From assembly GCF_022869865.1 (NCBI RefSeq), contig NZ_CP094984.1:744001-808000 (forward strand): a stretch of DNA of 64,000 nucleotides, read 5' to 3'. The stretch's first letter is position 1. Each line of letters opens with the position of its first letter. The notes under the pieces are model-generated. The model was given only the letters and a program-made list of their open reading frames with translations. It had not been told where the DNA came from and made no database searches. Source of the DNA: Arthrobacter zhangbolii. Its GTDB lineage: Bacteria > Actinomycetota > Actinomycetes > Actinomycetales > Micrococcaceae. Position numbers and translations under genes: made by a program. Below are positions 10,283 through 32,818 of this stretch, one piece after another.

Positions 10283-10380
10283 GAGTGATTTGTATCACGC
10301 GTCACCGCCCCGAGTGCCCTATGCGGATGCGCGCCGGATCCAGCACTGATCCACCACCGCCTAGGCGGAGCCCCCAGGCA

Positions 10381-12803: not shown

Positions 12804-12819
12804 GGTGAACCTCCTTGCT

Positions 12820-12839
12820 TTAGCGCAAATCTGCGCTAA
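12820..12839. promoter_or_regulatory. Perfect palindrome, candidate NrtR operator
   Basis: TTAGCGCAAATCTGCGCTAA has two perfect 8-nt arms around AATC. It sits in the 92-bp region between the divergent ARPP-1-like gene (start 12803) and the nrtR-like gene (start 12896). NrtR repressors bind inverted repeats of about this size in such intergenic regions and respond to ADP-ribose-type ligands. A second short palindrome, TTGCGCAA (12869-12876), may be a half-related site. Confidence 0.7.
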
Positions 12840-12895
12840 CTGATTCCAGTATGCGCCGGTTGCATCTTTTGCGCAACATTGAGATAAATGGGGGT

Positions 12896-13552: not shown

Positions 13553-13554
13553 CG

Positions 13555-15246
13555 CTAGGACATGCTGGACGCGTCTGCCGGCTGCGGTTCCCAGATCTGC
13601 ATCCGACCCATGGCACGCTCCAGCTCCGGTCCGCCGGCCTCGGCAATGAGGTCCGGGTCGCCGACGACCACCAGCAGGCAACGGGCGCGGGAGAGGCCCA
13701 CATACAGCAGCTCACCGGCCCGGCTCATGTCCTTGAACCCGTTCACGCAGAGGATGACCACTGAGCGTTCCAGCCCCTTGAATCCCAGGACGTGCCCGTA
13801 GAACTCGCCGTCGTCGTCGTGGAATGCGTTCCAGTATCCGACGGGATCGTTCTCGAATTCTTTGTGAATACTGTGCCGGTTCTTGGTGGTCAGGAACGCG
13901 ATCTGGTTGTTGGCCCAGCCTTCGTCGATCAGGGCGTCGACGCAGTCCCCAGCCACGTCGATGGCGTCCTCGGTGGCACACGGCACCAGCCTCACCGGAA
14001 GTCCGTCACCTCCGCGCGGCGAGAAGTGCTTGCCGGCGAAGCCCTTGAACGTCTGGGCAATGCGCTTGGTGTTCCGGAGATTCTCATCGATGTGGAGCGT
14101 GACCAGGCCGGCGGTCGGGTCGAGTGCTGTGCCTGCTGAGAGCGAATCCCACCTGCCGTAAACGTTCTGACGCTCGTCCATGAACGCGTAAATTTCGCCT
14201 TCTTGAGGATCCCGCAGGCAGGCGAGCAGACTTTCCCACCACAGCGGAGCGAAGTCCTGGGCTTCATCGATCACAATGGCATCCAGCTTCTGTTCCGGTG
14301 GAAGCCCGGCCGCGAGGTCCCGCATTAGGGCGGGCATGTCCTCGTCGAAGTAGGACTGTCCCGAGCCGTTGGGAACCCCAAGGGAGACGGCGTAGTCGTG
14401 GAACTCGCCGACGTAGACAGGTTTGGCCTGACGCCAGCCGGCCACCTGCCGGCGCAGATGCTCGGCGAGGCCGCGGTTGTAGCAGAACAGCCCCACCCGC
14501 TTGCCCTCCTTGGCCAGCCGCTTCGCCTTCTCCACGGCCAGCCAGGTTTTGCCGCTGCCGGCACCTCCGACGAACCGTGCCCGCGGAATGGAGCGGCTGC
14601 AGTCCAGCAGGACCTTCTGCCGTTCAGTGAGTTGCTCCTGAAGGTCTTCCAGTTCATCGGCGCTCAGCGACGGGTCGCTGGACGGCTCCAGGTCGCCGGA
14701 GAGCAGGGGGATGATCCGCTGGACAAACTTGGCTGCGAGCGGACTTCCGCCCTGTGCCTGGGTCTCAATGGCCGTCCGGAGACGCTCGCGGCAGTCCGTG
14801 AGGTCATCGTGGTCCAGGACGAGCGGACGCGGCACTCCTGCCATTTCCCAGTCCTGCGGCACGTTGGTGTACGGGAACGCCGCCATGTAGGCGAACCGGC
14901 TGACCAGCGGTGACCCGATTCGGTCCGTCACCCAGCCCTTGAAGGCGTGCTGCGCGCTTTGGGACTGGGCGATAGGGCTTTCGATTTTATGTTTGCCGTG
15001 CCGGTCCGACTGGTACCACTGTCCCTGATCGACGGAGATCTTGCCGCCCTTGACCTCAATCGCAGTCAGCCCAACCCCCGGCCACAGCACCAGAATGTCG
15101 ATTTCGTGTTCCGCACGTCCGAGGCGCACCTGGACGGAGTGTGCCAGAACGACGTCGTCGGGCAGCTGGGCGCGCAGGGCATCCCAGACCGCCTTCTCGG
15201 CGAGCCGGCCTTCGCCGAATAGCGGCTCATTCGGTATGCACTTCAC
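13555..15246 (-). CDS. NERD nuclease domain plus UvrD-like helicase
   Basis: 563 residues from a GTG. The N-terminal NERD domain (about 15-130) shows a PD-(D/E)XK-like core: EHEIDIL (D50) and AIEVKGG (E64, K66). The SF1 helicase part has Walker A GGAGSGKT (about 226-233), Walker B IDEAQD (about 325-330) and the late motif YVGLSRAR. Such fusions are frequent in phage-defence islands and would cut and unwind DNA. It is 170 nt downstream of the DUF6339-like gene on the same strand, so it could be a tenth gene of that operon or an independent gene. It converges with nrtR. Confidence 0.87.
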   Translation of the reverse strand: MKCIPNEPLFGEGRLAEKAVWDALRAQLPDDVVLAHSVQVRLGRAEHEIDILVLWPGVGLTAIEVKGGKISVDQGQWYQSDRHGKHKIESPIAQSQSAQHAFKGWVTDRIGSPLVSRFAYMAAFPYTNVPQDWEMAGVPRPLVLDHDDLTDCRERLRTAIETQAQGGSPLAAKFVQRIIPLLSGDLEPSSDPSLSADELEDLQEQLTERQKVLLDCSRSIPRARFVGGAGSGKTWLAVEKAKRLAKEGKRVGLFCYNRGLAEHLRRQVAGWRQAKPVYVGEFHDYAVSLGVPNGSGQSYFDEDMPALMRDLAAGLPPEQKLDAIVIDEAQDFAPLWWESLLACLRDPQEGEIYAFMDERQNVYGRWDSLSAGTALDPTAGLVTLHIDENLRNTKRIAQTFKGFAGKHFSPRGGDGLPVRLVPCATEDAIDVAGDCVDALIDEGWANNQIAFLTTKNRHSIHKEFENDPVGYWNAFHDDDGEFYGHVLGFKGLERSVVILCVNGFKDMSRAGELLYVGLSRARCLLVVVGDPDLIAEAGGPELERAMGRMQIWEPQPADASSMS

Positions 15247-15415
15247 GGTTCCCCCTCGTGTGCCGGCGGTGCGCCAGGCGTTGTGAGCAGGTTATCGCGG
15301 CGTCGCCCCGGCTCCTTGAAGCTGTACTCAATGAACTCCCCCTGTTACTAAGTGGGCCCAACCTAGCAGGGGTGCTTGAAACCGCAGGGAACGTTTACAC
15401 AAACACTCAGTACAA

Positions 15416-16168
15416 TCAGAGCCGTGGTTGCTCGAGGACCTGCCTCACATACCCATCCAGAAGTGCAGCGAGTTCATCGTCCGAGAGTATCTCCAGAACA
15501 ACATGCGAGCGGGCAGCCAATACCCGGGGGATCAACCCCCTCATCAGTTCAGTTCGAAGTATGGGCAAAAGCCCGTTCGCTTCAGCCCGCCATACTGCAT
15601 CCCGGGCTGCCCTTGCTGCTTTCCGGTTCCCCGAAAGGCCGGACCGTTCCATAATCTGCACAAACTCGTCCTCACCCAATGGAGAACAACCAGCGGGGGC
15701 CGCGTTCAGGTCTGGCCCGAGCGCCCACGCCCTCCACCAGAGGCGACGGAGTGCGTTTCGGGGTACGCCTATAAGTCGACTCTCAGTTCTCTGGGGGAAA
15801 CGCCAAGGTGCAAGCTCGGGAACCAATACCAGCGTGAGGAAACTCCAGACACCTTCGACGGCGGCGTCTCCGGGGACAATTCCGAGCTCCTTGTATAGGT
15901 AGGTGCCCAAGGTTCGGTCGAGAATCTGTTGGGATCGTTGATCGAGTTTGGCGGGAAAGCCGTACCTGGATGCGATCTCTCGGAGACCGTCCTGGATCCT
16001 TTGCAGCTCTTGTTGTGGAACAGGGATTCCGCCGACAGCCGCAGGGGCCGCAGACGTATGGCTAAGGGCACCATAGCCCACCAATTCAGTCAGCCCTTTG
16101 TCGGCGAGCTCGGCGATAATTCTGTGCGCGACGTCTCGCGGCAATCGGGGGTAGATGTAGATGCTCAA
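15416..16168 (-). CDS. DUF6339-like protein, last gene of the Z1/GHKL operon
   Basis: 250 residues from a TTG that overlaps the previous stop by 4 nt. The N-terminus (IYIYPRLPRDVAHRIIAELA) and a central RLIGVPRNALRRLWWRAW region, followed by a helical C-terminus, resemble a family I recall as DUF6339 that co-occurs with Z1 helicases and PD-(D/E)XK proteins. No catalytic motif is visible. A role in target sensing or complex assembly is only a guess. Identification confidence is moderate; presence as a real gene is high because of the coupling. Confidence 0.6.
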   Translation of the reverse strand: MSIYIYPRLPRDVAHRIIAELADKGLTELVGYGALSHTSAAPAAVGGIPVPQQELQRIQDGLREIASRYGFPAKLDQRSQQILDRTLGTYLYKELGIVPGDAAVEGVWSFLTLVLVPELAPWRFPQRTESRLIGVPRNALRRLWWRAWALGPDLNAAPAGCSPLGEDEFVQIMERSGLSGNRKAARAARDAVWRAEANGLLPILRTELMRGLIPRVLAARSHVVLEILSDDELAALLDGYVRQVLEQPRL

Positions 16169-17058
16169 GACAGTTTTCCTCTGGTGCTTTGCACATGGGC
16201 CTCAAACTTGGACGGTTCGCTGTCCCAGAGTTTCCGGAGAATGTGCGGATCCGAGATTTGTGGCCATAGCTGCAGCAGGAGACACCGCAGAACGGCTGCC
16301 ACTGACGGGTCCTCATGGTCAGGATCCCGGTCCAGAACAGCATCTGACTGCACTGCCAGGACAGCCATCTGGCGGGTGACATCAATGTCCAGCAAATGCT
16401 GCAGCTGCTTGTTTTCCGGGGTGTCCAGTCCCTGCAGGAGACGCTTAATCGCCGGCTGTGACGTGTTCATGGACAGGCGCACGGCACTTGCGAAGGAGGC
16501 TTCCGCGTCGGACAGGTCAGCATCCAGCTGCCAAAGGGCATCGGGAGTGTCCGGGCGTGTTCGCCGGAAATCTTCCGCATCCGTTGGGAACTGGGCCCCG
16601 ATCCCCTGGAGATAGACATGTGCATAGTTTTTCCAGAGGATGCTCCCCCGCTGGTGCGGGGCCAAAGGATCGAGAGGGACGGAGGCATCTACGAGTATGA
16701 ACGTGGTAAGGGTTAGGCGTCCGCCTAACTCAGTGCCGGGAACATCAAGCTGGAGTGGAACGCGAACATTCGCATCTGCAGGGGCTACTGCATCCAAGAG
16801 AAGGATGTCGGCTTTGGTGGAATCGGATTTGGCTTTGACGACCACCCTGAACTGACTTCCTTCCCCCATCCGGCACTGAGCGAGGATAAGCGGACGGTCT
16901 ATCGTGACCTCAGCTTGAAGGCTCAGCACAGTCTGGTAATCCCACGAGTCCATCTCTTCCGGAAGCGCTTCGCCGGAACCGTTTCTGGAGAAGAACCACC
17001 CGGAATGAACCACGGAATTCGGGTCCGGAGTGTAGAAAGGTGACACGGAGATTTTCAT
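16165..17058 (-). CDS. Unknown protein of the Z1/GHKL operon
   Basis: 297 residues, ATG start, overlapping its neighbours by 4 nt on both sides, so certainly translated with them. I do not recognise the family. The first 170 residues look beta-rich; the last 110 are helical, with repeated Leu/Ala heptad-like spacing. No signal peptide, membrane segment or nuclease motif is visible. The fixed position between a GHKL ATPase and the DUF6339-like gene suggests a structural or adaptor subunit. Confidence 0.6.
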   Translation of the reverse strand: MKISVSPFYTPDPNSVVHSGWFFSRNGSGEALPEEMDSWDYQTVLSLQAEVTIDRPLILAQCRMGEGSQFRVVVKAKSDSTKADILLLDAVAPADANVRVPLQLDVPGTELGGRLTLTTFILVDASVPLDPLAPHQRGSILWKNYAHVYLQGIGAQFPTDAEDFRRTRPDTPDALWQLDADLSDAEASFASAVRLSMNTSQPAIKRLLQGLDTPENKQLQHLLDIDVTRQMAVLAVQSDAVLDRDPDHEDPSVAAVLRCLLLQLWPQISDPHILRKLWDSEPSKFEAHVQSTRGKLS

Positions 17059-18929
17059 GCAGTACTGCTTTCCAAATCCGCTGAAACATCCCAGAGAACA
17101 CTGGATGCTGATGAGCGCTTCGCGCAGATGACGGCGTGCACAGGCTCGTCACCGAAGACTTTGAACCCCGAACGATGTCCCTTCAAGGCCTCACGGTCCC
17201 CGTCGAACTCCGCGGAGACCAGTTCCAGCTGCGGATCCAGCGTGGCGTCACTCGTAGCACCATCCAGCGCAACCCCAACAGAAACAGTGACAAAAGTAAC
17301 GTCGGCGCCTTTAGGCGGTGTCACGAGGCAGCGCAGATAAGAGGCGGTTTGGTTGCCGAGCATTCGGGGGCCGGCGTCAAGTAGCTCGATGGACGCCCGC
17401 TTCGGACCCCTCTTTCCGGCGCCGCCACCGCCGGACGCCCCGGGCCGTCCCTTGCCCTGCCCCGGGGTTCCGACCAAGTGGGAGAGCGCGTTAGCCACGG
17501 CGGCCGTACTGGTCGATTCTGCTGCTGTTGCCGGCTTTGGCTTACCCCACTGCGTCGACACGGCATGGTCAATGTCACGCAGCGCTTTAACCACGCGCAA
17601 CCGCTGCTCGTGGATGGTGACGAGGCTGGGTTGCCAGGAATCATGCGTTGGTGGTTCGGCGTGAGCAAATGATTCGTCCAAGTCATCGTCAGCGCGAAAT
17701 ACGCCGGCCCATTCGATGCCTTCCTTGGGCGCAGGCGGACCTTCCCTGTACTCAACTACAAGTTCCGGGGAGCGCAGGAGCACCGTGTGGTTGCAGACCC
17801 GGTTTGTGAACGGTGAGGCCGCAGCCGGGCTGTCCGGATCCTCCGGCTTGTGCCCGTCATCGATAGGCACAGGTGTGCTGAAATGAGGAGTGGTGAATGG
17901 AACAGTCGTCAACCTTCCAAGCCGCTCCTTGTAGCGCATAATCTCGTGCTGCCGTACGGCTGCTGATGGCTCACCACCTTCTCCCTTGAGAGCGGAGTAG
18001 GCTGCAACGAAGTGGTTTAGGGGCGGTCTTGAGTCCGGTTTCGGAATGGCGATTTCTGCACCGTCGAGGGTTGTTCGGATATCCATGGCCCGGTCGTCGC
18101 CCACGAGCTTGGGCCAGAGATGCCACAAAACCGACTCGGAAATAAAGGTCATGCCCTGGTGGATGGTTCTGTGTCCGAAGTCAGGATCGAGGATCAGGAT
18201 GTTCGTTCCCAGCGAGCCTTCAGCGATATCCGGCATACCAAGCCGAGCGGCCAGCGTGTCTGCCTCAATGCCCTCCAGCGGGACGGGTTCGCTCGAATCG
18301 TTTCTGCCCCACCAATGGCGCCCTGTATGGAGGATCCCGTCGAGCGCGAACTGACTACCGATACTGCAGGCGATCAAGCGGCTCACGGGAGCACCGTTAT
18401 GCATAGCCCGGCTGTGAACAATTATGGTGCGGGGTCGCGAAGCGATGTAGGCAATGGTCTTGCCGAAGCCGTAGGTGCCTCCAGTCATGCCGTCGGTGTT
18501 GGCCTTGCCCACATTGAGGATGAAGTCGACCCAGTCATAGTTTCCATCCGTCGACTCCAGATGCCCCTGGACTGGTCCTCCAAGTCCTTTCGTATTGCGA
18601 TCGGACACATATAGGCCCACTAGGTCCGTTCGTTGAAGGGAGTGGGCGAGCGTTGGATCGGGGAGTTCGGAGGCGTTGTGGAAAACGGATTCACGAAGGC
18701 AAGTGACAACGCTCGCCGCCAAGGTCTCGGCAGCGATGTTGAAAACCACGGGTGCTCCGCTTCCATCACGCGCGTCCCAACTGTTTTGTGCTGTTTCCCG
18801 CACCAAGACGGCCAGAGGGTCGAGATTGGGGCGGCCGAGTAGTTTTGCGAACCCGTCAGCCGCCAACCCTCCACTAGGGGAAAAGCGCTCGGGAATCCAA
18901 TCAAGAAGCACTGTCTGCAAATCCCTCAA
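17055..18929 (-). CDS. GHKL-type ATPase (first of two in the operon)
   Basis: 624 residues, TTG start inside the end of the upstream nuclease gene (29-nt overlap). A Bergerat ATP-binding fold is recognisable by the N box RETAQNSWDAR, the G1-like YVSDRNTKGLGG and the G2-like GGTYGFGKTIAYIA. Residues about 430-520 form a Gly/Ala/Lys-rich linker (GKGRPGASGGGGAGKRG), followed by a beta-rich C-terminal domain. Proteins of this group undergo ATP-driven dimerisation (HSP90/MutL/MORC-like). It is clearly diverged from the second GHKL protein of the operon at 27.6-29.0 kb, so this is not a simple recent duplicate. Confidence 0.72.
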   Translation of the reverse strand: MRDLQTVLLDWIPERFSPSGGLAADGFAKLLGRPNLDPLAVLVRETAQNSWDARDGSGAPVVFNIAAETLAASVVTCLRESVFHNASELPDPTLAHSLQRTDLVGLYVSDRNTKGLGGPVQGHLESTDGNYDWVDFILNVGKANTDGMTGGTYGFGKTIAYIASRPRTIIVHSRAMHNGAPVSRLIACSIGSQFALDGILHTGRHWWGRNDSSEPVPLEGIEADTLAARLGMPDIAEGSLGTNILILDPDFGHRTIHQGMTFISESVLWHLWPKLVGDDRAMDIRTTLDGAEIAIPKPDSRPPLNHFVAAYSALKGEGGEPSAAVRQHEIMRYKERLGRLTTVPFTTPHFSTPVPIDDGHKPEDPDSPAAASPFTNRVCNHTVLLRSPELVVEYREGPPAPKEGIEWAGVFRADDDLDESFAHAEPPTHDSWQPSLVTIHEQRLRVVKALRDIDHAVSTQWGKPKPATAAESTSTAAVANALSHLVGTPGQGKGRPGASGGGGAGKRGPKRASIELLDAGPRMLGNQTASYLRCLVTPPKGADVTFVTVSVGVALDGATSDATLDPQLELVSAEFDGDREALKGHRSGFKVFGDEPVHAVICAKRSSASSVLWDVSADLESSTA

Positions 18930-19908
18930 TTAGGTCGAGCGTTTCAACTTGTTCCAAGGGCGTGGGTGGCTCGTTGGTTACATCAATGACGTAGGTTATC
19001 GACACCACTCCCGGGGGAAGCTCAGTTTGCTCAAATGAACGCGGAATAACCCTGGGGAAATGTTCTTGTTTGACGTCGTAGAATCTCTGCTCCTTCAGAT
19101 CGAACCTTGAGTTCAGATATGCCTCTCTATGCGAGTCGAAATAACCCGCCCTACGAAGTTTTCGTTCGAAGAGAGACGATTCCACCCCGAGGTTGAGAAC
19201 CGCATCGACCATACTTGGCAGCGAATCCCCCGTCGGGGAACGCTCATACCGGGTATAGGCCAGGAACAACACGCCCGCGTCGTTGTTTGGTGCTTCGAGT
19301 TGCTGGAGGCTGCTGATGCCGATCCGGCGTCCTTCCCGTGCAAGGGACGCTTTCACCTCTATGGCAGTATCGCCGGCACGAAAATCATGCTGTGACCTAT
19401 CGGGTCCTTGCCAGTGGGACAGAGCTTGATGGTCTCCTGCGCGAACCAGCGTTTCCAGCAGTTGGAGTTCAGCAAGCAGACCTATCTGCTCAGAAACGTT
19501 CAGCTCGGGTCCCGAGGCTGCAGCGAAGAGGGCTTTCCACTCATGGAATGCGCGTGTCACGTCATACGCAGGAGACTCCGATTCACGAAGCACCTCCAAG
19601 AGTTCGCGTGCGAATGCCGTGAAAACAGTATCCAGTCTTCGCACCGTGCAGAACGCACTCAAGTAATCCCGGGACTGAAATTTCACCCTGCTTAAGCGAA
19701 CCGCCGCTCCGTCAGCCTGGTCGGGCACGGCCTCGCCGGGAAGCAAAGGGATGAGCAGATGACGATCCGACTTCGAGTCGAGCGCTGCCAAGACGTCGCC
19801 CGCCTCAACCGTGACGCCGATCGGGTTGGCCTGTGTAATCCCCTGTGTGCCCGTTCCGCCTGCGGAATTGACCATCCACACGGAGAGAAGGTCTGGATAT
19901 TCGGTCAT
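18901..19908 (-). CDS. PD-(D/E)XK motif nuclease
   Basis: 335 residues, ATG start overlapping the Z1 stop by 4 nt. The nuclease core is GLLAELQLLE, then HDFRAGDTAIEVKAS: an Asp in HDF, then E-V-K on the next strand. This is the layout of the PD-(D/E)XK motif (DUF4420-like) proteins that travel with Z1 helicases. It is the best candidate for the DNA-cleaving subunit of the system, whose methyltransferase lies at the head of the operon. Confidence 0.82.
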   Translation of the reverse strand: MTEYPDLLSVWMVNSAGGTGTQGITQANPIGVTVEAGDVLAALDSKSDRHLLIPLLPGEAVPDQADGAAVRLSRVKFQSRDYLSAFCTVRRLDTVFTAFARELLEVLRESESPAYDVTRAFHEWKALFAAASGPELNVSEQIGLLAELQLLETLVRAGDHQALSHWQGPDRSQHDFRAGDTAIEVKASLAREGRRIGISSLQQLEAPNNDAGVLFLAYTRYERSPTGDSLPSMVDAVLNLGVESSLFERKLRRAGYFDSHREAYLNSRFDLKEQRFYDVKQEHFPRVIPRSFEQTELPPGVVSITYVIDVTNEPPTPLEQVETLDLIEGFADSAS

Positions 19909-22511
19909 CCCAGAGCCACCTTGTCGTGAGAGCCTTCAGCATCCACGTAGGCGCTCAGGCTGTCGTCGGCTTCGTCAGTATTGAGCACGGACACATCCAC
20001 CTGAATAGCGTTCTTCGGCTCCGATCCCGCGGCAGCGGCGGGGAAGGAGAACGCCACACCCACCACATGCTCCGCGGCGTTCAGCTCCTTGCGGCTCTTT
20101 AGGTGGGGTTGGGGAGCAGAGTCCTTATCAATAGGGTAGATCACCAGGAGCGGACGTCCCTCAGCATTGCGGACTTCCTGTAGCTGAGCATCGCTCGCAG
20201 CTTTCGCCTGGCTTGCTGTCCAGCCCAGATCGAGTACACGATCAACCCGTGACATCAGCGTGCCAATGTTTGCTGTGTCCGGTTCGCTACTTTTGAGCTG
20301 TGAACGGGTGATCAGGTTCACGTTTTGCTCGAGGCCAAGATCGAGTGTTTTCGCAGACCCGTCGCTTTGACCGGATTTCGAGACCACTGCAATGTTCCAT
20401 TCACGGAGCGCCCCGAACTTCAGTTGCGTTGTCACATAGTCGAGGAGCATGCCTTCGGACATCTCGGACTTGTCATTAAAATGATAGTGATCCAAGAAGC
20501 TCAATATTGATTCGGCGGGAACTCCCTTGAAAAGGGTCCTCTCACCGTATATCGGTTTATCAAGGGCATTGTCGTTGGCTGCTGATAGAAGCTCCTTCGT
20601 TGCTTCTATGTTTTCTGCCAGAATCTCGGGATCGGTCCGGTCGAAATAGGTCGTTTGGGGGTGGGTTTCGCTGAAGGAGGCCGAGGCCTTAATCGCGAAC
20701 TGCATCTTCAGGGGAGATGTCACCTGCATTCGCGGATGAGTCTGAATGCGCACGGCCACATCACGTGGCGACGCAGCTCCCCCCTCGTAGCGCTTGATCT
20801 CGGCTCGAAGGTCGCTTTCAATCTCTGCCAAGAACTGGAAATCGTCCTTGAGCTTGCGGGTAGTCCAGACCCGGGGAAGATCCTCGTAACCACGCCGATA
20901 CCCGAACCAGCGTCCCATCTGCAGTGCGGAATCATAGGCACCCGCTGTCCTCAGGAAAAATGAGGACACAAGGCCTTCCAAAGTCAGGCCCCGGGAAAGC
21001 GTGTTGCCTCCCACGGCAATGACCGTCGCCGGGTCCGCGGCATAAATGAGGCGCTCGGGCGAGGCGCTGTTGTCTGCGACCACCTTCGCGTCAGTGAGTA
21101 CGTCGGGTAGCAGGCCCAGCACCTCTTCGAAGGACGGCGCTACCAGGTTGTGGCGGGCAGCCGGTTCCCGTTGCACTTCGGCTTCCCACTGGTTCTGCCA
21201 CTGCGCCGTGTCGCCGCTTTGGAGTTCTTTCTGCAGGTCTTTCACATGTTTCCTGATAACGGGCACCAAAGTGTTCTGAGGCTCGACCCTCATGGTGGTG
21301 TGGATCAGCATGCTGGAATGCTTGGCCTCTCCGTTTCTAAACCGCCGTGCAGCGGTAGCCAGCAGGAACCAGCGGACGGCGTCGGAGAGGCTGGGGGTAA
21401 CTTTGGGGGAGTAAGGGCTCTTAGAGCTGGATTTGTACGCTTCCGCTTCGGACTCAGGTACGAACCGGATCATGTCGTGGCCCTGGTCATCGGAGCTTTC
21501 TTCCGGCTCAGCCACGGGGGCTCCGAAGAGTTCTTCGGAGCCGAAGTATCCGGCCGGCTTGGGGAGGGAATAGATGAAGTCCCGCGGATAAATGTTCTGT
21601 GGGTCTGCGGGATTGGCCAAAACATTGGCGAACGGTGTGGCGGTATATCCCACGTACGCCACACGGGGCAATCCCAAGAGATCAACGAGCAAGCTGTTAA
21701 TGGCTGTTTGATCGAGCTCTGCATCTCTTGCGGAGTTCGGGCTGGCCTGGTCTGCCTCGTCGTCGATGATGAGCACGGGACATTTGTTCAGACCGCCCTT
21801 TTCATGGGCGTCCAGGAGCCAGTTGCGAAGATTTGTGAGCCGCGAAACGTTCTTTTTCACCACTGCCAACAGCCGCAATTGTGACCCGGCAACCAGTGGA
21901 AGCGCTTTGACGGGATTGCCGAAATCGCCGAATTCATCGGTTAGCTGGACCCAGTCTGCCGGTCTCAAATCGCAAAGCTGACTGTCCAGGCGCAGTTGGG
22001 TCTGGCGCCGCAGGGAGTTGTGCACGCCGGAAAGGACGATGAACAGTCTGTAGCCTGCATCAGCGGCCTTCGCGATGGTGGCCGTGAAATTGGCAGTTTT
22101 ACCCGACTGGACGTAACCGAGCACCATTCCGCGTGTCCGGATGGTTTCGCTGTGCGGGTCAGCCAGTAGGGACACGACATCTGTGGAGGTCTTGTCGAGA
22201 GACGGAACGGCATTGGTCCAACCCGGGTCGGCTTGCAGCTTTGCTTTGAGGCTCGGCCAGAAGACATCATGGGGTTGGGGGCCGGCATACCATGGCTCTG
22301 TTTCCGATTCCTCATCGAATACGGTGACGCCGTGAGCGTCTACCCACCTTTGTTTGATAATCAGTTCGCGTTCGGTGAGAACGTCCTCGACCAACCCGTC
22401 ATTGTTGAGCATAATACGCAAGGTATTTACGGCAGCGTCTTTGGAAACACTGGTTTTCATAAGAACTTCGAGGGTTTCCAGCGCCGCGACTCCTTGGGCG
22501 TTTAGGGCCAT
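19905..22511 (-). CDS. Z1-domain SF2 helicase/ATPase (copy A)
   Basis: 868 residues, ATG with AAGGATG upstream. Walker A is in GYVQSGKTAN (about 131-140), Walker B in IIDDEAD (about 246-252) and motif III in YTATPFANVL; the late arginine motif is GRWFGYRRGYEDLPRVW. The central Z1 region covers roughly 380-620. Z1 proteins are predicted SF2 motors in restriction systems with MORC/MutL-like ATPases. Paired here with the PD-(D/E)XK nuclease and the 624-residue GHKL protein. Confidence 0.88.
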   Translation of the reverse strand: MALNAQGVAALETLEVLMKTSVSKDAAVNTLRIMLNNDGLVEDVLTERELIIKQRWVDAHGVTVFDEESETEPWYAGPQPHDVFWPSLKAKLQADPGWTNAVPSLDKTSTDVVSLLADPHSETIRTRGMVLGYVQSGKTANFTATIAKAADAGYRLFIVLSGVHNSLRRQTQLRLDSQLCDLRPADWVQLTDEFGDFGNPVKALPLVAGSQLRLLAVVKKNVSRLTNLRNWLLDAHEKGGLNKCPVLIIDDEADQASPNSARDAELDQTAINSLLVDLLGLPRVAYVGYTATPFANVLANPADPQNIYPRDFIYSLPKPAGYFGSEELFGAPVAEPEESSDDQGHDMIRFVPESEAEAYKSSSKSPYSPKVTPSLSDAVRWFLLATAARRFRNGEAKHSSMLIHTTMRVEPQNTLVPVIRKHVKDLQKELQSGDTAQWQNQWEAEVQREPAARHNLVAPSFEEVLGLLPDVLTDAKVVADNSASPERLIYAADPATVIAVGGNTLSRGLTLEGLVSSFFLRTAGAYDSALQMGRWFGYRRGYEDLPRVWTTRKLKDDFQFLAEIESDLRAEIKRYEGGAASPRDVAVRIQTHPRMQVTSPLKMQFAIKASASFSETHPQTTYFDRTDPEILAENIEATKELLSAANDNALDKPIYGERTLFKGVPAESILSFLDHYHFNDKSEMSEGMLLDYVTTQLKFGALREWNIAVVSKSGQSDGSAKTLDLGLEQNVNLITRSQLKSSEPDTANIGTLMSRVDRVLDLGWTASQAKAASDAQLQEVRNAEGRPLLVIYPIDKDSAPQPHLKSRKELNAAEHVVGVAFSFPAAAAGSEPKNAIQVDVSVLNTDEADDSLSAYVDAEGSHDKVALG

Positions 22512-22560
22512 TTTTCATCCTTGAACTTGATACGGGAATAAGTAAACGGGTGGTGACGCG

Positions 22561-24636
22561 TCACCAAGGGCTAAAGAGGGTAAATCCCCGTTCGTTGGCA
22601 TTGGCAACCAGCTGGATGAGCCTTGCCGCCTGCCTTTCTGAAGGGACGCCTGATTTACGCCCTGTCATGAGGCCTAGGATGCTCATATCTGTGGGCGAAG
22701 CGACCCTGTTCTCGCCGGCAAACCCTTCCAGCGCCTTCCAATGCTCTGTTGGGATCTCGTAGAGCCGGGTTTGCAGGCCGATTCCATTGTCGACCTTCTG
22801 GTTCGCCTTTGCAGCTTTGCCTCGGGCAGCGACGGTGGCGGCGTCGACCAAAGCCGAGAGGAAGTCGGAGGGCAGCGTGTAGGGCATGGCTTTGACGGTG
22901 TCCCAGCACTGCGCCTTTTTGGCCCACTCCGTGACGTTGGTGGTGCTCCGATGTTCACTCGTGAGAACCTCTTGGACGAGGCGTCCCACCTGGTTGGCGA
23001 CGACCAATACGGAGTCCGGCACGGCTTGTGCGGACCACACTGCATCAAAATCGAAGACCTTGCCTTGTCCCTGCCGTTCTACCAGGCTGGCAATCTTGGC
23101 AACCGTGTAGGCGGCAATGTTCGCCAAGTACGCCTTGCGATACCAGTCAGCATTCTTGATAACGTTCCTGACCTCGGCGAAGAGGATCCCCTTGGCCACC
23201 GTCTCTTTAAAGTACTGTTCGTTGAACTGGTCTGGATCCTTATCCCAGCTCTTGGCCACGATATCGGCAAAAGCAACGAAGTTTTTCTGCGCGCCCGCGC
23301 TCACAGTGTGAGGCCGTTGATCCCACGACATAAGGTATTTGGCCAATGCCGGTTTATCGAACTTTTGCGATTTCGGATTCAGATTTTCGAAACGGACGGC
23401 TTCTGAACGTGAAAGCTTGCTGCGTTCATTTTCATATTGGCCGCGAGTACGTTCGTAGTACCAGTGGGTGCTGTGGACCGCACCGGAACGGGACGGGACA
23501 AGGACCTTGCGTGAGAGCTCGGCCAGACGGACGTGGTATGGACTGTTGGAGAAGAAATCGGCAGAGCTGACTGCATTCTGGCTATTCGCAAACCGTGAAA
23601 TGTTCGGTATGAGTTCTGCGGCGAGAGCGGGAGCGACGACCACCAGCTTCATTTGTACAAAAACGCCGTCCAAAACTCCCTCAGATTTCGCTTCCCTTTG
23701 CACAAAAAACAATGACGCCGTGGTCTGGCCGCCATTCACTATTTGCAAATCTTCGATCGACAGAATGGAGCTGCCGTCCTCAGAGGTTGTAACACTTGTG
23801 GCTGTGGCAGTTACTCCGTTGTTGAACGCCATGAAGTTCTGCGGAGCGGAATGGATCGTGGCACGGATTCCCTTGTTAATCTTGCCTCTATTGCTGAGGT
23901 AGGACCTCACGTTGCTTTCAAGCAGCCGGCTCCCATGCTTGCCGTACAGGGACGACAGGACCCGGCCGGGCACGGAGGTCAGGTAGGTCGCAAACTCTGG
24001 CGTGGATTCGACCCGAAGTGCAGGAAGCCCCTGGTTTGCCCACTCCGTCAGATCAATCTGAAGAGGCTCATGGCCGCTTTGGGACTGGTGGAGCTGGTGG
24101 AAACGCTCGATATCCCAAAGATGAAAGTCCACGGGAATTCCATGGATGTCTTCCGACGGCAGGGAACGCAAACGATCACTCAGTCGGGCATCTGTCATGA
24201 GATAGAGACGGTAACGTGAAACGTTCCTGCCCCTGCTCCGCAAATCCCACGCGAGCTGGTAAGCCGGCGAGCTTTGCTCCCGCCCCTGCATGAAGCTCCC
24301 GTCGAGTGCATCCAGCAGGAAGTAGTGAAGGGCCCTGAGAGCCGCTTTTGCATCGGTCGCCGAGAGCGTTTGAATGGTCTCTGTCCCGTAATGGACGCTG
24401 GCGACGACCGCAATACTGTTATCTGCGTTCTCGAGGTCGTAGCCATTGACCTTGAGTTTCCGCTGATTGGTACCCGCGCCCTCGAAGTCCAAAACTTCGA
24501 TGTCATCGAACTCGCCCGCTTCGGTGAGTATTTCTCCGCAATGCCTGGTAAAGGCGGTAGCGACGAATTCGCCCTCGGCGTTAGCCAAGGCACCGACAGC
24601 AGCGGCCTGCTGCTGGAAGTAGCTCTCAATATCCAT
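22561..24636 (-). CDS. AIPR (abortive infection phage resistance) family protein
   Basis: 691 residues, ATG start. Hallmarks of AIPR proteins are present: MAFNNGVTATA, followed by LQIVNGGQTTASLF, near residues 270-315. An N-terminal region (1-190) with IEVLDFEGAG and an acidic-basic core may contain a diverged nuclease fold, as reported for some AIPR members, but I cannot assign catalytic residues. It lies between the two Z1 genes (50-nt gaps on both sides), so it may join or separate two functional halves of the operon. Named for phage resistance; the mechanism is unclear. Confidence 0.82.
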   Translation of the reverse strand: MDIESYFQQQAAAVGALANAEGEFVATAFTRHCGEILTEAGEFDDIEVLDFEGAGTNQRKLKVNGYDLENADNSIAVVASVHYGTETIQTLSATDAKAALRALHYFLLDALDGSFMQGREQSSPAYQLAWDLRSRGRNVSRYRLYLMTDARLSDRLRSLPSEDIHGIPVDFHLWDIERFHQLHQSQSGHEPLQIDLTEWANQGLPALRVESTPEFATYLTSVPGRVLSSLYGKHGSRLLESNVRSYLSNRGKINKGIRATIHSAPQNFMAFNNGVTATATSVTTSEDGSSILSIEDLQIVNGGQTTASLFFVQREAKSEGVLDGVFVQMKLVVVAPALAAELIPNISRFANSQNAVSSADFFSNSPYHVRLAELSRKVLVPSRSGAVHSTHWYYERTRGQYENERSKLSRSEAVRFENLNPKSQKFDKPALAKYLMSWDQRPHTVSAGAQKNFVAFADIVAKSWDKDPDQFNEQYFKETVAKGILFAEVRNVIKNADWYRKAYLANIAAYTVAKIASLVERQGQGKVFDFDAVWSAQAVPDSVLVVANQVGRLVQEVLTSEHRSTTNVTEWAKKAQCWDTVKAMPYTLPSDFLSALVDAATVAARGKAAKANQKVDNGIGLQTRLYEIPTEHWKALEGFAGENRVASPTDMSILGLMTGRKSGVPSERQAARLIQLVANANERGFTLFSPW

Positions 24637-24686
24637 TTGTCCCCATTTATCTGATGATGATCCTGAGAGGATCGTTTGTGCTACTG

Positions 24687-27557
24687 CTAAGCGAGTTGTT
24701 CGTAATCCGAGACCCAGTAACGCTGGGCTACGCGGTTTAGCAAGTACTTGGCGCGGCCGTTGCGTCCACGCGGATCGTAGCCGGTTTTGGGCAGGGCAAC
24801 CTTGAGAGCCATAAACGGGAGATGTTGTTTCTGCGCCTCGTCAAGTGAGCGCTTTGTCTCAACGGCGTTCCGCGGGAGCTCGGCCAAATCCTCCACCTCA
24901 ATGGTTCGACTCTGGTCTGTGCCACCTGGGCTGACATAGAGCGGATAGATCAGTAACTGAGGCTTGCTGAGGTGACCGTAAAAGGCTGTTTCCGGAATCG
25001 AGCTCTTTGCGTCCTGACCGAGCTCCCTGAGAGCATCCATGTATCTCCCGGAAGCTCGCTGCTCGATCTCTTGATCGAGGAGTTTCTGCAAATCCTCAGG
25101 CCCGGCTAAGCGCCCGCGCTTGCCACTGACCCACAGCGATGCCCCTCTCGGGGTCCCGTCCTTGGAGAACAACGGGCGAAAAAGCATCTGCCTTTCGACG
25201 GGGTAACATCCGCTGAGCGGTCCGAGGGTGAGAGGCGCGTTTCTTTTCACGGAACCGTTGACAACGACGATGTCCCACTCTTTGAAAAGATCACCTTCGC
25301 CGCTGCGCACCATGCGTTCGAGGCTTGCACCGTTGAACAGTACGTCATCGGGTGCCGCCGAAAAGAGGAGGAGCGCGTCGGCGATCAGGTCTTTGGGGAC
25401 CGAGCGTATGCGCGTATATCCTCGCCGGGTCCTGTCGACGGCGCAGCCGTTTCCCACCGCTTCGTCCAACAGTTTGACTATGGAAGTATGGTTTTCCCGC
25501 TGGACTTCAACACTGGTGGAGAGTTTCGTGGTTTCCAAATTGCGTCCAAGCAGGTTGATTTCCTTTTGGGCCGACATGGCGTGCCTTGACTTGTTTCGGG
25601 CTGTGATCAGAAGTGACTCGGGGTGTTGCTGCACGGCGAGACCGAAGTCCCGAGGGATCATTTTGCTTCGACGCATATAGGCGAGATCCACCCGGAGCTC
25701 TTCCACCGCTGTGGCAATGAATCTGTAGTCTGCAGCTGAACCTTCGCTGATCCACAGCCTGCAAATGTCCTGGTACCCATCCCGGTACCCGAACCAGCGT
25801 GCCATCTGCATCATAGTGTCGGCAGCAGCAACGTTCCGATGGAAATAGCTGACCACCAGTCCGTCCAAAGTCAAACCGCGGCTGAGCAGATCACCGCCGA
25901 TGGCAATCTGCCTCTCCGGCACCTCGCCATCGAACTCAGAGGGATCGATCCCTGGCGCTGAGTTATAGACCTTGACTCGGACTTCCGCGACTGATGCTGA
26001 CAGCTGGGACAGAACACTTTCCCAGGAGGCACCACTCGCGGTGTACTGGCGCGTAAAGGTTCCCTTCAGCTCATCTAATAACGGATGGGTTCGTCCCGCA
26101 GCATAAGCGGTAGCGTGCAGTTGGATGGCTGTCTTGTATTGAAAGAGTGCTTCACGAAGTGCGTCCGCCACGTGGTTTTGGACATCAGTGAAACGCGAAA
26201 CGTTTACCAGCATGGAACGTTTTGCGGGTGCTTTCAGCCGATGATCCAAGACGGCGTTGGCCAGGAGGAAAGTGCGGAGCGCTTCCTGAAGGCTCGAAGA
26301 CAGCCCATCGGGGCGTTGAAGTTTCTTGTGTTTCAAGGGAAGCCAGCGAACGGCGTCTTTGAGTTTCTGTAGCTGGGTTCCGGGTTCGTCCGGCGTCCGC
26401 CCGAATACCGCCCGGATGCCAACGTAGTTGCTCGGAGCGTCGAGGGGGTAGATGAAATCTTCGGGAAACAGGTCGGGCAGTTCCTCGCCATCCTCCGTGA
26501 GGCAAGCCGTTGCTTCGTCGTCGATGAAGATGTTGGCAAAGGGGGTCGCTGTGATCGCAAGGTAAGAGGACCGGGTAAAGAGGTTTAGAAGCCGTCTGAT
26601 GGCGGAGTTGATGGCAGTAGGATCGTCGGATTCGTCATTGGTGTTGATTGATGCGTAGTCGGACTCATCGTCAATCAGGAGCAACGGAAGATCAATTCTT
26701 GGTTGGCTCCCGGCTTTGGCCTGGGCCCACCCCTGTACTGCCTTGAGAACGTGAGTGTTCTTCTTAACAACGAATACCAACGGCGGGGAGCTGGTCGTTG
26801 GCAGGGCGACGTCTCCTGCAGTTCGGCTCACTTGAAGGTAATCCATCAGGGTAGTCGTGAGCGATGTGGCATCTGCGATCTCTCGATCCACGTTGCCAAT
26901 ACCTATATGCATGTCGCGGGGAACCCGCGCCCCATTATGCATTCCGGCAAGCGTCGTGTCCCTGCCGATGAACCCCTCATCAATCCTGGAATGAGTCTGC
27001 TGACGCAGGTATTCAGTGTTCCCGGAGAGGACGATGATAACGCGATAGCCTGCGTCAGCGGCTTTGTTCATCAGCGCGAGATAATTCTGGGTCTTCCCCG
27101 ACTGCACGTCGCCTATCACCAAGCCGCGGCGATTCCAGATGCCCGGGTTCCTGGGATCCCCCACAAGGTCAAGAATCTCGTCGCTGAAGTGGTCCAGCTT
27201 GTCAAGAACGCCGCCAGAACGTCCGGAGTCGGAAAGCATATGCCGGTATGCAAACCACCTCCGCCACACAATGTCGGTCTTGCTCTTCTGCAGCCAAGGT
27301 ATGTGATCATCCTTGATCAGCGGACCACCATCGCTTGAGGAACTGGTGGCGGTCAGCTTTTGTACCCAGAGCTCAACCAACTGGTCCATTTGTGATTCGG
27401 TTGACGCCGTCGGAAGCTGCGTGCGTGCGCGGGTGAACGCCAATCGAATCTCATCCCCAGCGAGGTCCTTACGGTATTCGTCCGTGTCTGGGTCCTTGAG
27501 AAGGGACAGCGCAGCTGCCTCGACCGTTGAAACTGGAAAAAGGAACGGGTCTGTCAT
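24687..27557 (-). CDS. Z1-domain SF2 helicase/ATPase (copy B)
   Basis: 956 residues, ATG overlapping the upstream GHKL stop by 4 nt. Walker A is in GDVQSGKTQN (about 147-156), Walker B in LLIDDESD (about 292-299) and motif III in AITATPFANIF; the late motif is ARWFGYRDGYQDICRLW. The motifs align well with copy A, but the rest of the protein differs strongly and it is 88 residues longer. Coupled to the MORC-like ATPase and close to the methyltransferase, it forms the classical Z1-MORC-methylase trio. Confidence 0.88.
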   Translation of the reverse strand: MTDPFLFPVSTVEAAALSLLKDPDTDEYRKDLAGDEIRLAFTRARTQLPTASTESQMDQLVELWVQKLTATSSSSDGGPLIKDDHIPWLQKSKTDIVWRRWFAYRHMLSDSGRSGGVLDKLDHFSDEILDLVGDPRNPGIWNRRGLVIGDVQSGKTQNYLALMNKAADAGYRVIIVLSGNTEYLRQQTHSRIDEGFIGRDTTLAGMHNGARVPRDMHIGIGNVDREIADATSLTTTLMDYLQVSRTAGDVALPTTSSPPLVFVVKKNTHVLKAVQGWAQAKAGSQPRIDLPLLLIDDESDYASINTNDESDDPTAINSAIRRLLNLFTRSSYLAITATPFANIFIDDEATACLTEDGEELPDLFPEDFIYPLDAPSNYVGIRAVFGRTPDEPGTQLQKLKDAVRWLPLKHKKLQRPDGLSSSLQEALRTFLLANAVLDHRLKAPAKRSMLVNVSRFTDVQNHVADALREALFQYKTAIQLHATAYAAGRTHPLLDELKGTFTRQYTASGASWESVLSQLSASVAEVRVKVYNSAPGIDPSEFDGEVPERQIAIGGDLLSRGLTLDGLVVSYFHRNVAAADTMMQMARWFGYRDGYQDICRLWISEGSAADYRFIATAVEELRVDLAYMRRSKMIPRDFGLAVQQHPESLLITARNKSRHAMSAQKEINLLGRNLETTKLSTSVEVQRENHTSIVKLLDEAVGNGCAVDRTRRGYTRIRSVPKDLIADALLLFSAAPDDVLFNGASLERMVRSGEGDLFKEWDIVVVNGSVKRNAPLTLGPLSGCYPVERQMLFRPLFSKDGTPRGASLWVSGKRGRLAGPEDLQKLLDQEIEQRASGRYMDALRELGQDAKSSIPETAFYGHLSKPQLLIYPLYVSPGGTDQSRTIEVEDLAELPRNAVETKRSLDEAQKQHLPFMALKVALPKTGYDPRGRNGRAKYLLNRVAQRYWVSDYEQLA

Positions 27558-29023
27558 GACTGGGTGTCCTTCCCGAGGACAGTTTCCCGGAGAACAGCCT
27601 CGGCGCGTGGGTGCTTGTCGAATGGTTCAGAAGTAAGCATGGCCTTCACAAAGGCGTCCGGGGCCAAAGTGCTCTGAAGCTGTCCCCAAAGTGCACCCGC
27701 TAAGTCGAAGAGGTCTTGGTCATCCACTTCGGTAGCAGAATGGGATAAGTCCTGGCCCATCTTGTTGTAAACATCCTCGATGGGAAACGTTCGCTCCATG
27801 AGGCTCAAAACGGTTTCCAGAGCGGCGGACTCTTGACGATCGAACGTGCTGCTGAGCGCGACCAGTGCAGGGTGGTTTCTGTTGACCTCGTAACGGAACG
27901 ACTCAGCGTCGGAGACGGCATTCCAGATATGTGTAATGGGACTGCGCTCTGTTCGTCCGCGATAGGTGTGCGCGCGCTGACTTGGGCCCACAATTGTGGC
28001 TGCAACGGCGCGTAGCCGGTCCCTGATAACGGGTGGAGGTACGGCTTGGGCCTTCTTGATGTCCAAGGACCATAGATGGTCCAAGGAATTCGGAACATCT
28101 ACTTGCACCCGTGCGAGCTTGCCCAATTCCTGTTTCGGAGCCACGCGGAACCAGGTTCCCCAGATGACAAGGCGCATTGCACGGTAAATATAGAAACCTT
28201 GGCTGTCTCGCAATGAGCCGTTTACATGGGCCTTCCTGCGGTCCGACGGCGACATCATGTTCAGGTGCGGAAGGGTATAGGGGCGTAGTTCGATAGTCCC
28301 TTGGTCCAAAGATATGCGTTCCAGCGGACCAATTTGGGTGGCTTTGTGATCCTTGAGCAGGGGGTCAGTCGCAGGGACGGACGTAAAGTTCAGACGAATA
28401 TCGAGCTGCCGTCCATGCTCGCCTGCCAGGAACCTGTGGAAAACAAGTCCCAGATGGGAGGCGGCACGCATCATGGCTTCATCCATGGCGGCAATCGAGT
28501 TACCACTGGTGCTTTCAAGCTGGTCCAGATCCTGCCAAAGGATCATCGTTCCGTGATCCAAGGCTTCTAGCGCAGCGTATTCAGGGAGGGCTTGGAACTC
28601 TTCCGGTGCAAGTCGCAGGAGGCTCCAGCTGGAGGAGCTGCTGAGGTAGTCCAAGTCCCACCTGAAAGCGTGCACCTCGCGGCGCTGCTTCGTTACCAAA
28701 GTGAGCTTGCGGCACTGGGAAATGGATGCGGTTTTGAGTCCGAGACCGAACCGTCCAAGATCGTGGCTTGCACGCCGGTTTCGTGAGTCATTTCCTGCCA
28801 AGCGCATCGCATCCTGCGCTTCTAAGGACGTCATTCCCGCGCCGTCGTCGATGATGGCGACGTAGGGATCACCTACTGCGGAAAACCGGATGTCCACCGT
28901 TTCTGCGCCGGCTGTTATCGAGTTGTCGACGAGGTCGGCCAACGCGGTTTCCAAGTTGTAGCCAACAGCTCTCATGGATTCCATGAGCTGCGGTCCAGGC
29001 AGCAGTGTGATCGCGTCCGTCAA
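27554..29023 (-). CDS. MORC/MutL-like GHKL ATPase (second of two in the operon)
   Basis: About 489 residues. A TTG at 29023 with GGGGGA just upstream is preferred; an in-frame TTG at 29047 without Shine-Dalgarno is the alternative. Bergerat-fold motifs are textbook: N box ALADLVDNSITA (about 28-39), G1 DDGAGM (59-64), G2 GRFGLGLKTAS (90-100). A transducer-like S5 region follows. Bacterial members of this group in restriction operons were proposed as the ancestors of eukaryotic MORC proteins (Iyer, Abhiman and Aravind). It likely loads or clamps on DNA and works with the Z1 motor. Confidence 0.88.
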   Translation of the reverse strand: MTDAITLLPGPQLMESMRAVGYNLETALADLVDNSITAGAETVDIRFSAVGDPYVAIIDDGAGMTSLEAQDAMRLAGNDSRNRRASHDLGRFGLGLKTASISQCRKLTLVTKQRREVHAFRWDLDYLSSSSSWSLLRLAPEEFQALPEYAALEALDHGTMILWQDLDQLESTSGNSIAAMDEAMMRAASHLGLVFHRFLAGEHGRQLDIRLNFTSVPATDPLLKDHKATQIGPLERISLDQGTIELRPYTLPHLNMMSPSDRRKAHVNGSLRDSQGFYIYRAMRLVIWGTWFRVAPKQELGKLARVQVDVPNSLDHLWSLDIKKAQAVPPPVIRDRLRAVAATIVGPSQRAHTYRGRTERSPITHIWNAVSDAESFRYEVNRNHPALVALSSTFDRQESAALETVLSLMERTFPIEDVYNKMGQDLSHSATEVDDQDLFDLAGALWGQLQSTLAPDAFVKAMLTSEPFDKHPRAEAVLRETVLGKDTQS

Positions 29024-29146
29024 GCGTCCCCCAGAGCTAAAATGCAATTAGTACTTGTGAGGATCAGAGTATCGCCACACGGTGACATTCCTGTTAGTGC
29101 GACACAGGAGCCTGAACGGACGGAGGTTCGAAACGGGGACTTTTCC

Positions 29147-30625
29147 TCAGTGAACTCCCAAGACTTCGGCAATCCTGCTTGCGATCTTCATGGCCAGCAG
29201 GGGAGGCACTGCATTCCCCACCTGTGTGTATTGCTGCGTGCGGTTACCCAGGAAGACGTAGTTGTCGGGGAACGTCTGCAGCCGCGCAGCCTCGCGTACG
29301 GTCAGGCTTCGCATCTGTTCATGGTCCGGGTGAATGTAGTAGTGCCCGTCCTTGGCGATGTGGGACACGACGGTGGACGAGGGCTTCCCCCACGCTTGGA
29401 CGCGGAATCTGTCCTCAAACGGGACGACAACGTTGTTTATGTTGTTGTGCTTTGGCCAGTGGGCAGCAGGCAGGCTGCGCACTTTGGGGCTTTGACCGTC
29501 GTCCGTCACGAGGGCAGCAAGCAAGTAATAACGAACCAGGTCTTCGCGCATGTGTCCACGGGCTTCGTGGTTCCACGTGACCGGGGCAGCATCTTCACGG
29601 AGCCATTTTTGAAGTTCACCGGCTGCTGAGTCCTCGGCGAAAGGTTCCGCCGGGCGGACGGCGGTCGACCTAGTACCGAACTCATAAGGTCTGGGAGCAT
29701 CCGCATGCTCCTTTCCGGGAAGCGCCCGCAGAATCTTGTGCGCCTGCTGACGGATCCTTGCCCAGTCTTCCCAAGTGGCCTGCGGCTGACGGGAAATGCC
29801 GGAACGCAAGTGCGGCAGGCTCCAGATGGCGTCCTGCACGGTTACGGGTTCGCGGGGTTCGAGGACCTTTGGGGCCGGAAGCTGGGCGTCCCGACGTAAA
29901 CCCACGATGATGACCCGATGGCGCTTCTGGGGGATTCCGAACTGCTCGGACTTGATGATGAAGTCTGTGGGCTTGAGCTCTCCGGTGTCGCTACTGACCA
30001 CCATCGAGTGAAGGTCATAGCCGGGCGCGCGCAGGTCTTGCTCAATCAGTTCAAAGATCTTGCCGTTGCCGCTCTTGGAGGAGAGCATGCCTTTGACGTT
30101 TTCCATCACGAAGACCGCAGGGCGGAACTCGGTGATGATGTGAAGGTATTCCTTGTACAGGAAGTGCTTGTGATCGTCCTTGAACGTGGCGTCGTGCTTA
30201 CGCCGGGAGCGTCCGGCCATTGAGTAGGCCTGGCACGGCGGTCCGCCGATTAGGACCCATTCGGAGGCGTCCTGAAGAGATTCGCGGATCAACGCGTCGG
30301 ACTCTGGACGGCTGTCCTCACTCAGGGTGAACTGCCGGACTTCGGCCTCCGCGTGCGCGAAAGCCTCAGCCACCTCCGGCGCGGCACGCATTTCGTCGTA
30401 CGTCACGTCCTGGGCAAGGTACTTCTTGTAGATCTCAGGTTGACCTTCGGGCAAATCCAAAAGGAACCGGTGAGCCGCACGAAGGGTCAGAGTCTTTACT
30501 GCAGAGGTTTCCATCTCGATGGACAGAACCGTCTTGAAGACCCGGTTGCCGTCTTGGTCGCGGATACTGGAGAAGCCTTCGTTCAGGCCGCCAGGGCCAG
30601 CAAAGATGTCAACGACGGGGATCAC
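29147..30625 (-). CDS. C5 cytosine DNA methyltransferase
   Basis: 492 residues from a GTG at 30625 that has a perfect GGAGG 5 nt upstream. All main m5C motifs are visible: I (VVDIFAGPGGLNEGF), IV (GGPPCQAYSMAG, catalytic Cys about 131), VI (VMENVKGML), VIII (FGIPQKRHRVIIVGLR), IX and X (REAARLQTFPD, then QVGNAVPP). It is the first gene of the operon and would mark host DNA against the associated nuclease. The recognition sequence cannot be predicted from sequence alone. It uses longer spacers between motifs I and IV than small enzymes such as HhaI. Confidence 0.93.
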   Translation of the reverse strand: MIPVVDIFAGPGGLNEGFSSIRDQDGNRVFKTVLSIEMETSAVKTLTLRAAHRFLLDLPEGQPEIYKKYLAQDVTYDEMRAAPEVAEAFAHAEAEVRQFTLSEDSRPESDALIRESLQDASEWVLIGGPPCQAYSMAGRSRRKHDATFKDDHKHFLYKEYLHIITEFRPAVFVMENVKGMLSSKSGNGKIFELIEQDLRAPGYDLHSMVVSSDTGELKPTDFIIKSEQFGIPQKRHRVIIVGLRRDAQLPAPKVLEPREPVTVQDAIWSLPHLRSGISRQPQATWEDWARIRQQAHKILRALPGKEHADAPRPYEFGTRSTAVRPAEPFAEDSAAGELQKWLREDAAPVTWNHEARGHMREDLVRYYLLAALVTDDGQSPKVRSLPAAHWPKHNNINNVVVPFEDRFRVQAWGKPSSTVVSHIAKDGHYYIHPDHEQMRSLTVREAARLQTFPDNYVFLGNRTQQYTQVGNAVPPLLAMKIASRIAEVLGVH

Positions 30626-31267
30626 GGTTTCCTCCAAAATTGGTGCGGCTCTCCAGGTTACCAAGCAGGAACGCGGAGCCTAGTAATCTTACCGGTTCCG
30701 CGCGTTCACCTCGCTCCCAGTGAACACCTCGGCACTGACAGTTTCGTCACCGTTGATCTCCGACCAGTCGACCCCAAGCCTTCGCCGCGATGTCACCTCG
30801 AAGATTTCGATACTGGTCGCGCGTGTCTGACCGGATTTTGGCTGGTGGCCACCACTGAACAACTGAAAGAGGGCTGAGGCCCGGGGCAGGTACGCCGATT
30901 AAACTCGAAGACGAGGTGAAACCCATGATTCCATGTGGTTGTGCGGGGCCAGCATCTTTCACGGTTGGGCCATAGCTCGAGACTGGCCACGCGTTTAACG
31001 AACATTCAGGCGGAATCTTTGGGGCAACCGTAGCTTGCACCACGGCGCTTAGAAACGTGTTTCTATGCGAAAGGTCAGAAGCCGTCGGTGTCTTGGTATG
31101 TTTACCAGGAACTAATGTCGATACCGGTCGCTTGTTACGCCGGTCCAATGGTCGTGACGGCGTTTGCGATTTTGGATACCGGCGTCTCTCGCGTTGAAAT
31201 TGAATCATGCTTCTTTCATGAGCGATCGACGACATGTGAGCGGCTTATCCCCTCTATAGTGAGATCC
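30626..31267. other. Divergent intergenic region without a convincing gene
   Basis: 642 bp between the minus-strand methyltransferase and the plus-strand HNH gene. Short open frames exist on both strands but show no family features, no Shine-Dalgarno and mixed base use. The region should carry the two divergent promoters. A TATAGT box lies at about 31255-31260, close to the HNH start. The 16-bp inverted repeat described separately is the only clear structure. Confidence 0.5.
31050..31065. promoter_or_regulatory. Inverted repeat, candidate operator of the defence locus
   Basis: TAGAAAC-GT-GTTTCTA, two perfect 7-nt arms around 2 nt; the symmetry extends outward (GC on the left, GC on the right) with one mismatch on each side. 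It lies 425 bp before the methyltransferase start and 200 bp before the HNH start. The form is that of an operator for a dimeric regulator, but no dedicated regulator gene is seen next to it. Confidence 0.45.
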
Positions 31268-32818
31268 ATGACAAACACCACCACGATCGTCCCGCCCGGT
31301 TTCAAGTTATCCAAGTCGATTCGAGACGAATTGCCCCCTTCGGAACGCGCGTCCGCCCGAGAATCCTTGTGGCAAAAATCTCGAGGCAGGTGTTCTCTTT
31401 GTAACGAACCGCTTGCTGTGGACGGGACAGCGACTGACGTGGACCATGTGAAGGCACGCAAGGAAGGCAATGAAGGTGAAGGGGGCGTAACCGAGCTGAA
31501 AAACCTCTATTTGGCCCATAAGTCATGTAATCGAAGCAGGAAAAACCTTTCCTATCCTTTAGCGGCAACAGTTATCCGCTTTGGGAGGTGGTCCACTGCG
31601 CATCCTCGTCGATCCTTCGGAGATGTAATTAACCACTACATAGAAAACGGTAACCAACGCGTGGTGGTTTCTTTATCGGACACTACCGCGACTCTCACAT
31701 TTGGTTCGATCGAGAGGTCCGCACCGATTTACGAAGATCCAGCCACCCGAACGAAATACTTTTTTATGAACGTTCCCATTGAGTACATTCAAAACGATGA
31801 AGGTACGCAACCGCGGTTTATAGAGCATGACCATGTTCGTACATTGGCTATCGACTTTAGCGACCGCCCCGTACATGAGCCGAGCAACTGTCGACTGGTT
31901 TCCTGCGATAATGGGCTTGCGGACCTGAAGCAATTCGACGGGCAACACAAAACGACGGCTCAGATTCTCCTAAAACGTACCGAGATTCCTATGAAGATGT
32001 ACGTTGATCCGGATCCGGCTATGATCAACAACCTTGTAGTCCAAATTCAACAGGGGATCAAGAAACGCCCTTTGTCGACCACAGATACCCTGCAAAAACT
32101 CGACAAGGTCATGCAGGACAAAGTTGCTGCGTACAAGGCGAAGCACGACGGCAAAAGCCCTAGCGAAAGCGAGTTGGTCAGCGATCAGCCACTCCAAGAC
32201 CAAGCGAAGTTCAAAAAGCAACTTCTCGCAAACTTCGAATGGGCAATCCTCAATCACGAAAACCTGGAACTGAAAAAGCAGAAGCTATTCAGTACCAAGT
32301 TGGATAAGAAGTTTCCGCTCACAGACCGCGTCTTGGTTACAAAGATTATTCGTCCCTTGGTCTGCCAAGAACTGTTGGATGAGCCGTTGGATAACTCAAT
32401 TGCACGCGAGAATGAGCGCGAGGCGATAGTTCAGCTACTGAATCGAGTGACGGACAATATGCTCACTGATAAATGGCGGCCTCAGCCCCAAGGTGTGGAG
32501 GAAGACATTATGACGCTGCAAGCCCGCGCTTTCTTTATGCAAGGAGCTATTGCATGGTGGTTGAAGTCGATATTCATTCCCGCACTTCAGGGTCAGTTTC
32601 TTAAACAAAAGTGGAAGCGGCTGTTCCTTGAGCCACTATCCGAGGTTCAGCAGGAACGGCTTGATGGTTACATTGACCTGATCTGCGGATGGGATGTGTG
32701 GAGCACGACTGATGAAACTCATCTTGCGGCATGGCGAAGCAATACGGTTACGGCTGTTGAAAAGGCTTTCCCTGAATATTCTAACGTGTCACTCGTAAAC
32801 CAGTTTGCCGGAACCTAA
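31268..32818 (+). CDS. HNH endonuclease fused to a DGQHR-like domain
   Basis: 516 residues. ATG at 31268 is chosen because the HNH domain starts soon after; the 60 codons upstream are open but featureless. The HNH part has CSLC (42-45), DVDHV (58-62), N79 and HKSCNRSR (84-91), i.e. a zinc-ribbon HNH. Near residue 223 the segment LKQFDGQHKTTAQIL matches the DGQHR signature of DndB-like proteins. The rest is helical and charged. Base composition is markedly AT-richer than everything around, a sign of separate acquisition. It is divergent from the methylase operon and may be an independent defence gene or part of the same locus. Confidence 0.7.
   Translation: MTNTTTIVPPGFKLSKSIRDELPPSERASARESLWQKSRGRCSLCNEPLAVDGTATDVDHVKARKEGNEGEGGVTELKNLYLAHKSCNRSRKNLSYPLAATVIRFGRWSTAHPRRSFGDVINHYIENGNQRVVVSLSDTTATLTFGSIERSAPIYEDPATRTKYFFMNVPIEYIQNDEGTQPRFIEHDHVRTLAIDFSDRPVHEPSNCRLVSCDNGLADLKQFDGQHKTTAQILLKRTEIPMKMYVDPDPAMINNLVVQIQQGIKKRPLSTTDTLQKLDKVMQDKVAAYKAKHDGKSPSESELVSDQPLQDQAKFKKQLLANFEWAILNHENLELKKQKLFSTKLDKKFPLTDRVLVTKIIRPLVCQELLDEPLDNSIARENEREAIVQLLNRVTDNMLTDKWRPQPQGVEEDIMTLQARAFFMQGAIAWWLKSIFIPALQGQFLKQKWKRLFLEPLSEVQQERLDGYIDLICGWDVWSTTDETHLAAWRSNTVTAVEKAFPEYSNVSLVNQFAGT

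Follow-up and report, generated by a model that had tools for sequence, protein, structure and literature searches.

The window analysed here is a 64,000-nucleotide stretch of Arthrobacter zhangbolii contig NZ_CP094984.1 (positions 744,001 to 808,000), and our subject is a nine-gene operon on its minus strand (15416..30625; all operon features below lie on that strand). The operon begins with a C5-cytosine DNA methylase (29147..30625; PF00145, E 1.9e-50), which has a GTG start, the mechanical open reading frame (ORF) extending to 30664. There follow gene 2, a MORC-family GHKL ATPase resembling MzaB (27554..29047; HATPase_c_3, 109 bits; start probably TTG at 29023), gene 3 (24687..27557), and an MzaE-like AIPR protein (22561..24636; AIPR 303 bits, AIPR_N 144 bits). 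The remaining genes are gene 5 (19905..22511), a DUF4420 PD-(D/E)XK nuclease (18901..19908; PF14390, E 7.3e-51), gene 7 (17055..18929), p8 (16165..17058) and a DUF6339-family protein (15416..16168; PF19866, matched by 35 of 40 family members). The first-pass annotation had described this nine-gene run, and the observation is confirmed; gene order and spacing are conserved in all five genomes that carry it. Its methylase, MORC-like ATPase, AIPR, nuclease and DUF6339-like calls were likewise borne out by the matches above, and gene 2 carries the MORC S5 motif as GFYIYRAMRLV.

We find that two related, putative anti-virus systems, normally separate, are joined in this single operon, with the result that two motor sets now probably share one DNA-marking and one DNA-cutting enzyme. 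The first half resembles the MZA anti-phage system; the MZA names (MzaB, MzaC, MzaD and MzaE) are taken from PADLOC and NCBIfam. MZA has reportedly been treated by Gao et al. 2020. The NCBIfam equivalog cut-offs for MzaB to MzaE are not reached (306/850, 439/1500, 99.6/420 and 358/1050 bits). Judged by sequence, this half belongs to a named anti-phage type, which would be its putative function here. We refer to the second half as module B. The halves are joined across a 49-nt gap (22512..22560; 49-50 nt in 5/5 copies), and a 50-nt gap (24637..24686) lies where MZA relatives have a DUF4420 nuclease gene of their own, a gene kept in 21/21 unfused MZA loci. Both gaps span 48-52 nt, a length that would allow separate translation. 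DUF4420 is present in a single copy in the whole genome, with residues E147, D175, E184 and K186; its tree groups sequences by system type and places the copy from the fused operon in the module B branch.

Comparison among genomes bears on how the two halves depend on one another. The first-pass annotation had offered two interpretations, a fusion of two defence systems and a two-stage machine in which one motor/ATPase pair senses and the other cuts, with AIPR as the link. The fusion, with a methylase and nuclease in common, is the more probable. An obligate two-stage machine would fit the preserved order and spacing, as well as the constraint on all nine genes in the five genomes (AIPR gene dN/dS, the ratio of nonsynonymous to synonymous divergence, 0.035), but we consider it unlikely. 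Many genomes carry one half without its counterpart, which means that neither is generally dependent on the other, and among the samples examined the fused order is restricted to one genus instead of recurring in unrelated genomes. The halves also differ in divergence: the 95% interval of their difference in synonymous divergence (dS) excludes zero in 9/10 genome pairs, the MZA core having the higher dS in eight of these and the lower in one (G012-G027), and in the tenth pair the lower bound of the interval is 0.000. That the operon instead holds an MZA system that has lost its nuclease and is disappearing beside a functional module B would account for the absent MZA nuclease gene, yet this is largely contradicted already and very improbable. 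The operon seems to be a naturally arisen chimera assembled from known components rather than a new kind of system.

Among the closest known systems, besides MZA, are the operons of paraMORC2, superfamily II helicase and a novel restriction endonuclease-fold nuclease (Iyer, Abhiman and Aravind 2008, PMC2292703), the Corynebacterium diphtheriae BH8 island CDBH8_0988-0994 (PMC5379612) and the CglI and NgoAVII restriction-modification systems (PMC4267653), each as given in the available portions of these papers. CglI and NgoAVII differ in that, in the accessible text of that report, the nuclease is PLD-B3 and there are only three genes, none a GHKL ATPase. The first-pass annotation had pointed to predictions by Iyer, Abhiman and Aravind, and both halves match those of 2008 as they appear in the available text. 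The fusion itself, the module B outline and the methylase exchange described below were not found in the literature, among the matches listed.

The methylase motifs GPPCQ and MENVKG are present in 5/5 fused copies, and the fused-operon enzyme is 92% identical to the methylase adjoining a module-B-only locus (G009). Elsewhere, methylases of ~75-90% identity adjoin MZA in one genome and module B in another (L163 and L178; L103 and L175/L176; L157/L162/L166 and L169/L172). A MutL/MORC-type ATPase gene also occurs at 11 module B loci (L043, L045, L054, L055, L056, L074, L079, L084, L085, L093 and L113), mostly adjoining the methylase, and is possibly a further methylase partner.

The nuclease varies as well. 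DUF4420 was not detected by tblastn at four module B-type loci (L041, L098, L101 and L128). At L098 (Microbacterium elymi) the DUF6339 gene is followed instead by genes for AIPR, for a methylase and for a PLD-B3 endonuclease of the NgoFVII type, which makes this locus a second instance of AIPR joined to module B. L101 has a nearby Vsr gene, L128 a nearby GmrSD gene, and L041 nearby MZB-domain and helicase genes. Because L080 has Vsr together with DUF4420, Vsr is not necessarily a replacement. Gene context supports DUF4420 as a candidate exchangeable cutting subunit.

MORC proteins are defined by the motif GhXhhpXXRhl, which gene 2 matches; for paraMORC2 proteins the defining motif is ExxxH, located within the S5 domain (PMC2292703, available portion). 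Gene 7 had been called a second, different GHKL ATPase. The motifs are compatible with this: it has GHKL-like, ATP-site-like motifs, invariant in 8 aligned sequences and invariant or nearly so among relatives, and EPPTH at 425, which we read as a bare sequence motif and which makes it paraMORC2-like. Across the collected loci, fused copies included and only matches >150 bits counted, EPPxH occurs in 69/79 gene-7-type (module-B-type) versus 0/50 MORC/MutL-type proteins, and the MORC motif in 45/50 MutL-type versus 0/79 gene-7-type proteins. PADLOC PDC-M33A matches gene 7 at 61 bits. We found no Pfam match, no PDB-profile match and no profile-profile link to the MORC family, so the GHKL identity is one of motif.

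For p8, AlphaFold2 predicts a beta-rich domain followed by helices (predicted local distance difference test, pLDDT, 92.2; predicted template modelling score, pTM, 0.66); G138, P158, W176 and N198 are invariant in 37 sequences. The DUF6339 protein, with conserved arginines and tryptophans, is predicted to be nearly all-helical (pLDDT 96.3, pTM 0.91). Neither protein has a PDB match at E <= 0.001. DUF6339 and methylase sequence share a single ORF at nine Streptomyces or Streptacidiphilus loci and at L040 (L040, L065, L066, L069, L071, L072, L088, L102, L106 and L108), and for this reason the DUF6339 protein may guide or partner the methylase.

The region is a defence island: ~3 kb from the operon, 33583-39367 (minus strand) encodes all three components of a Type I restriction-modification system, HsdR, HsdS and HsdM. 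An HNH-domain protein (31088-32818, plus strand; PF01844, E 3.4e-06) is divergent from the operon. Directly downstream, 8714-15246 (minus strand) encodes a SIR2-like protein, an ADP-ribosylglycohydrolase with a dual-specificity phosphatase domain, an ARPP-1 protein and a NERD-helicase, probably a second defence cluster; the left flank of G027 has a ~80% match to the greater part of this cluster (8726-15297).
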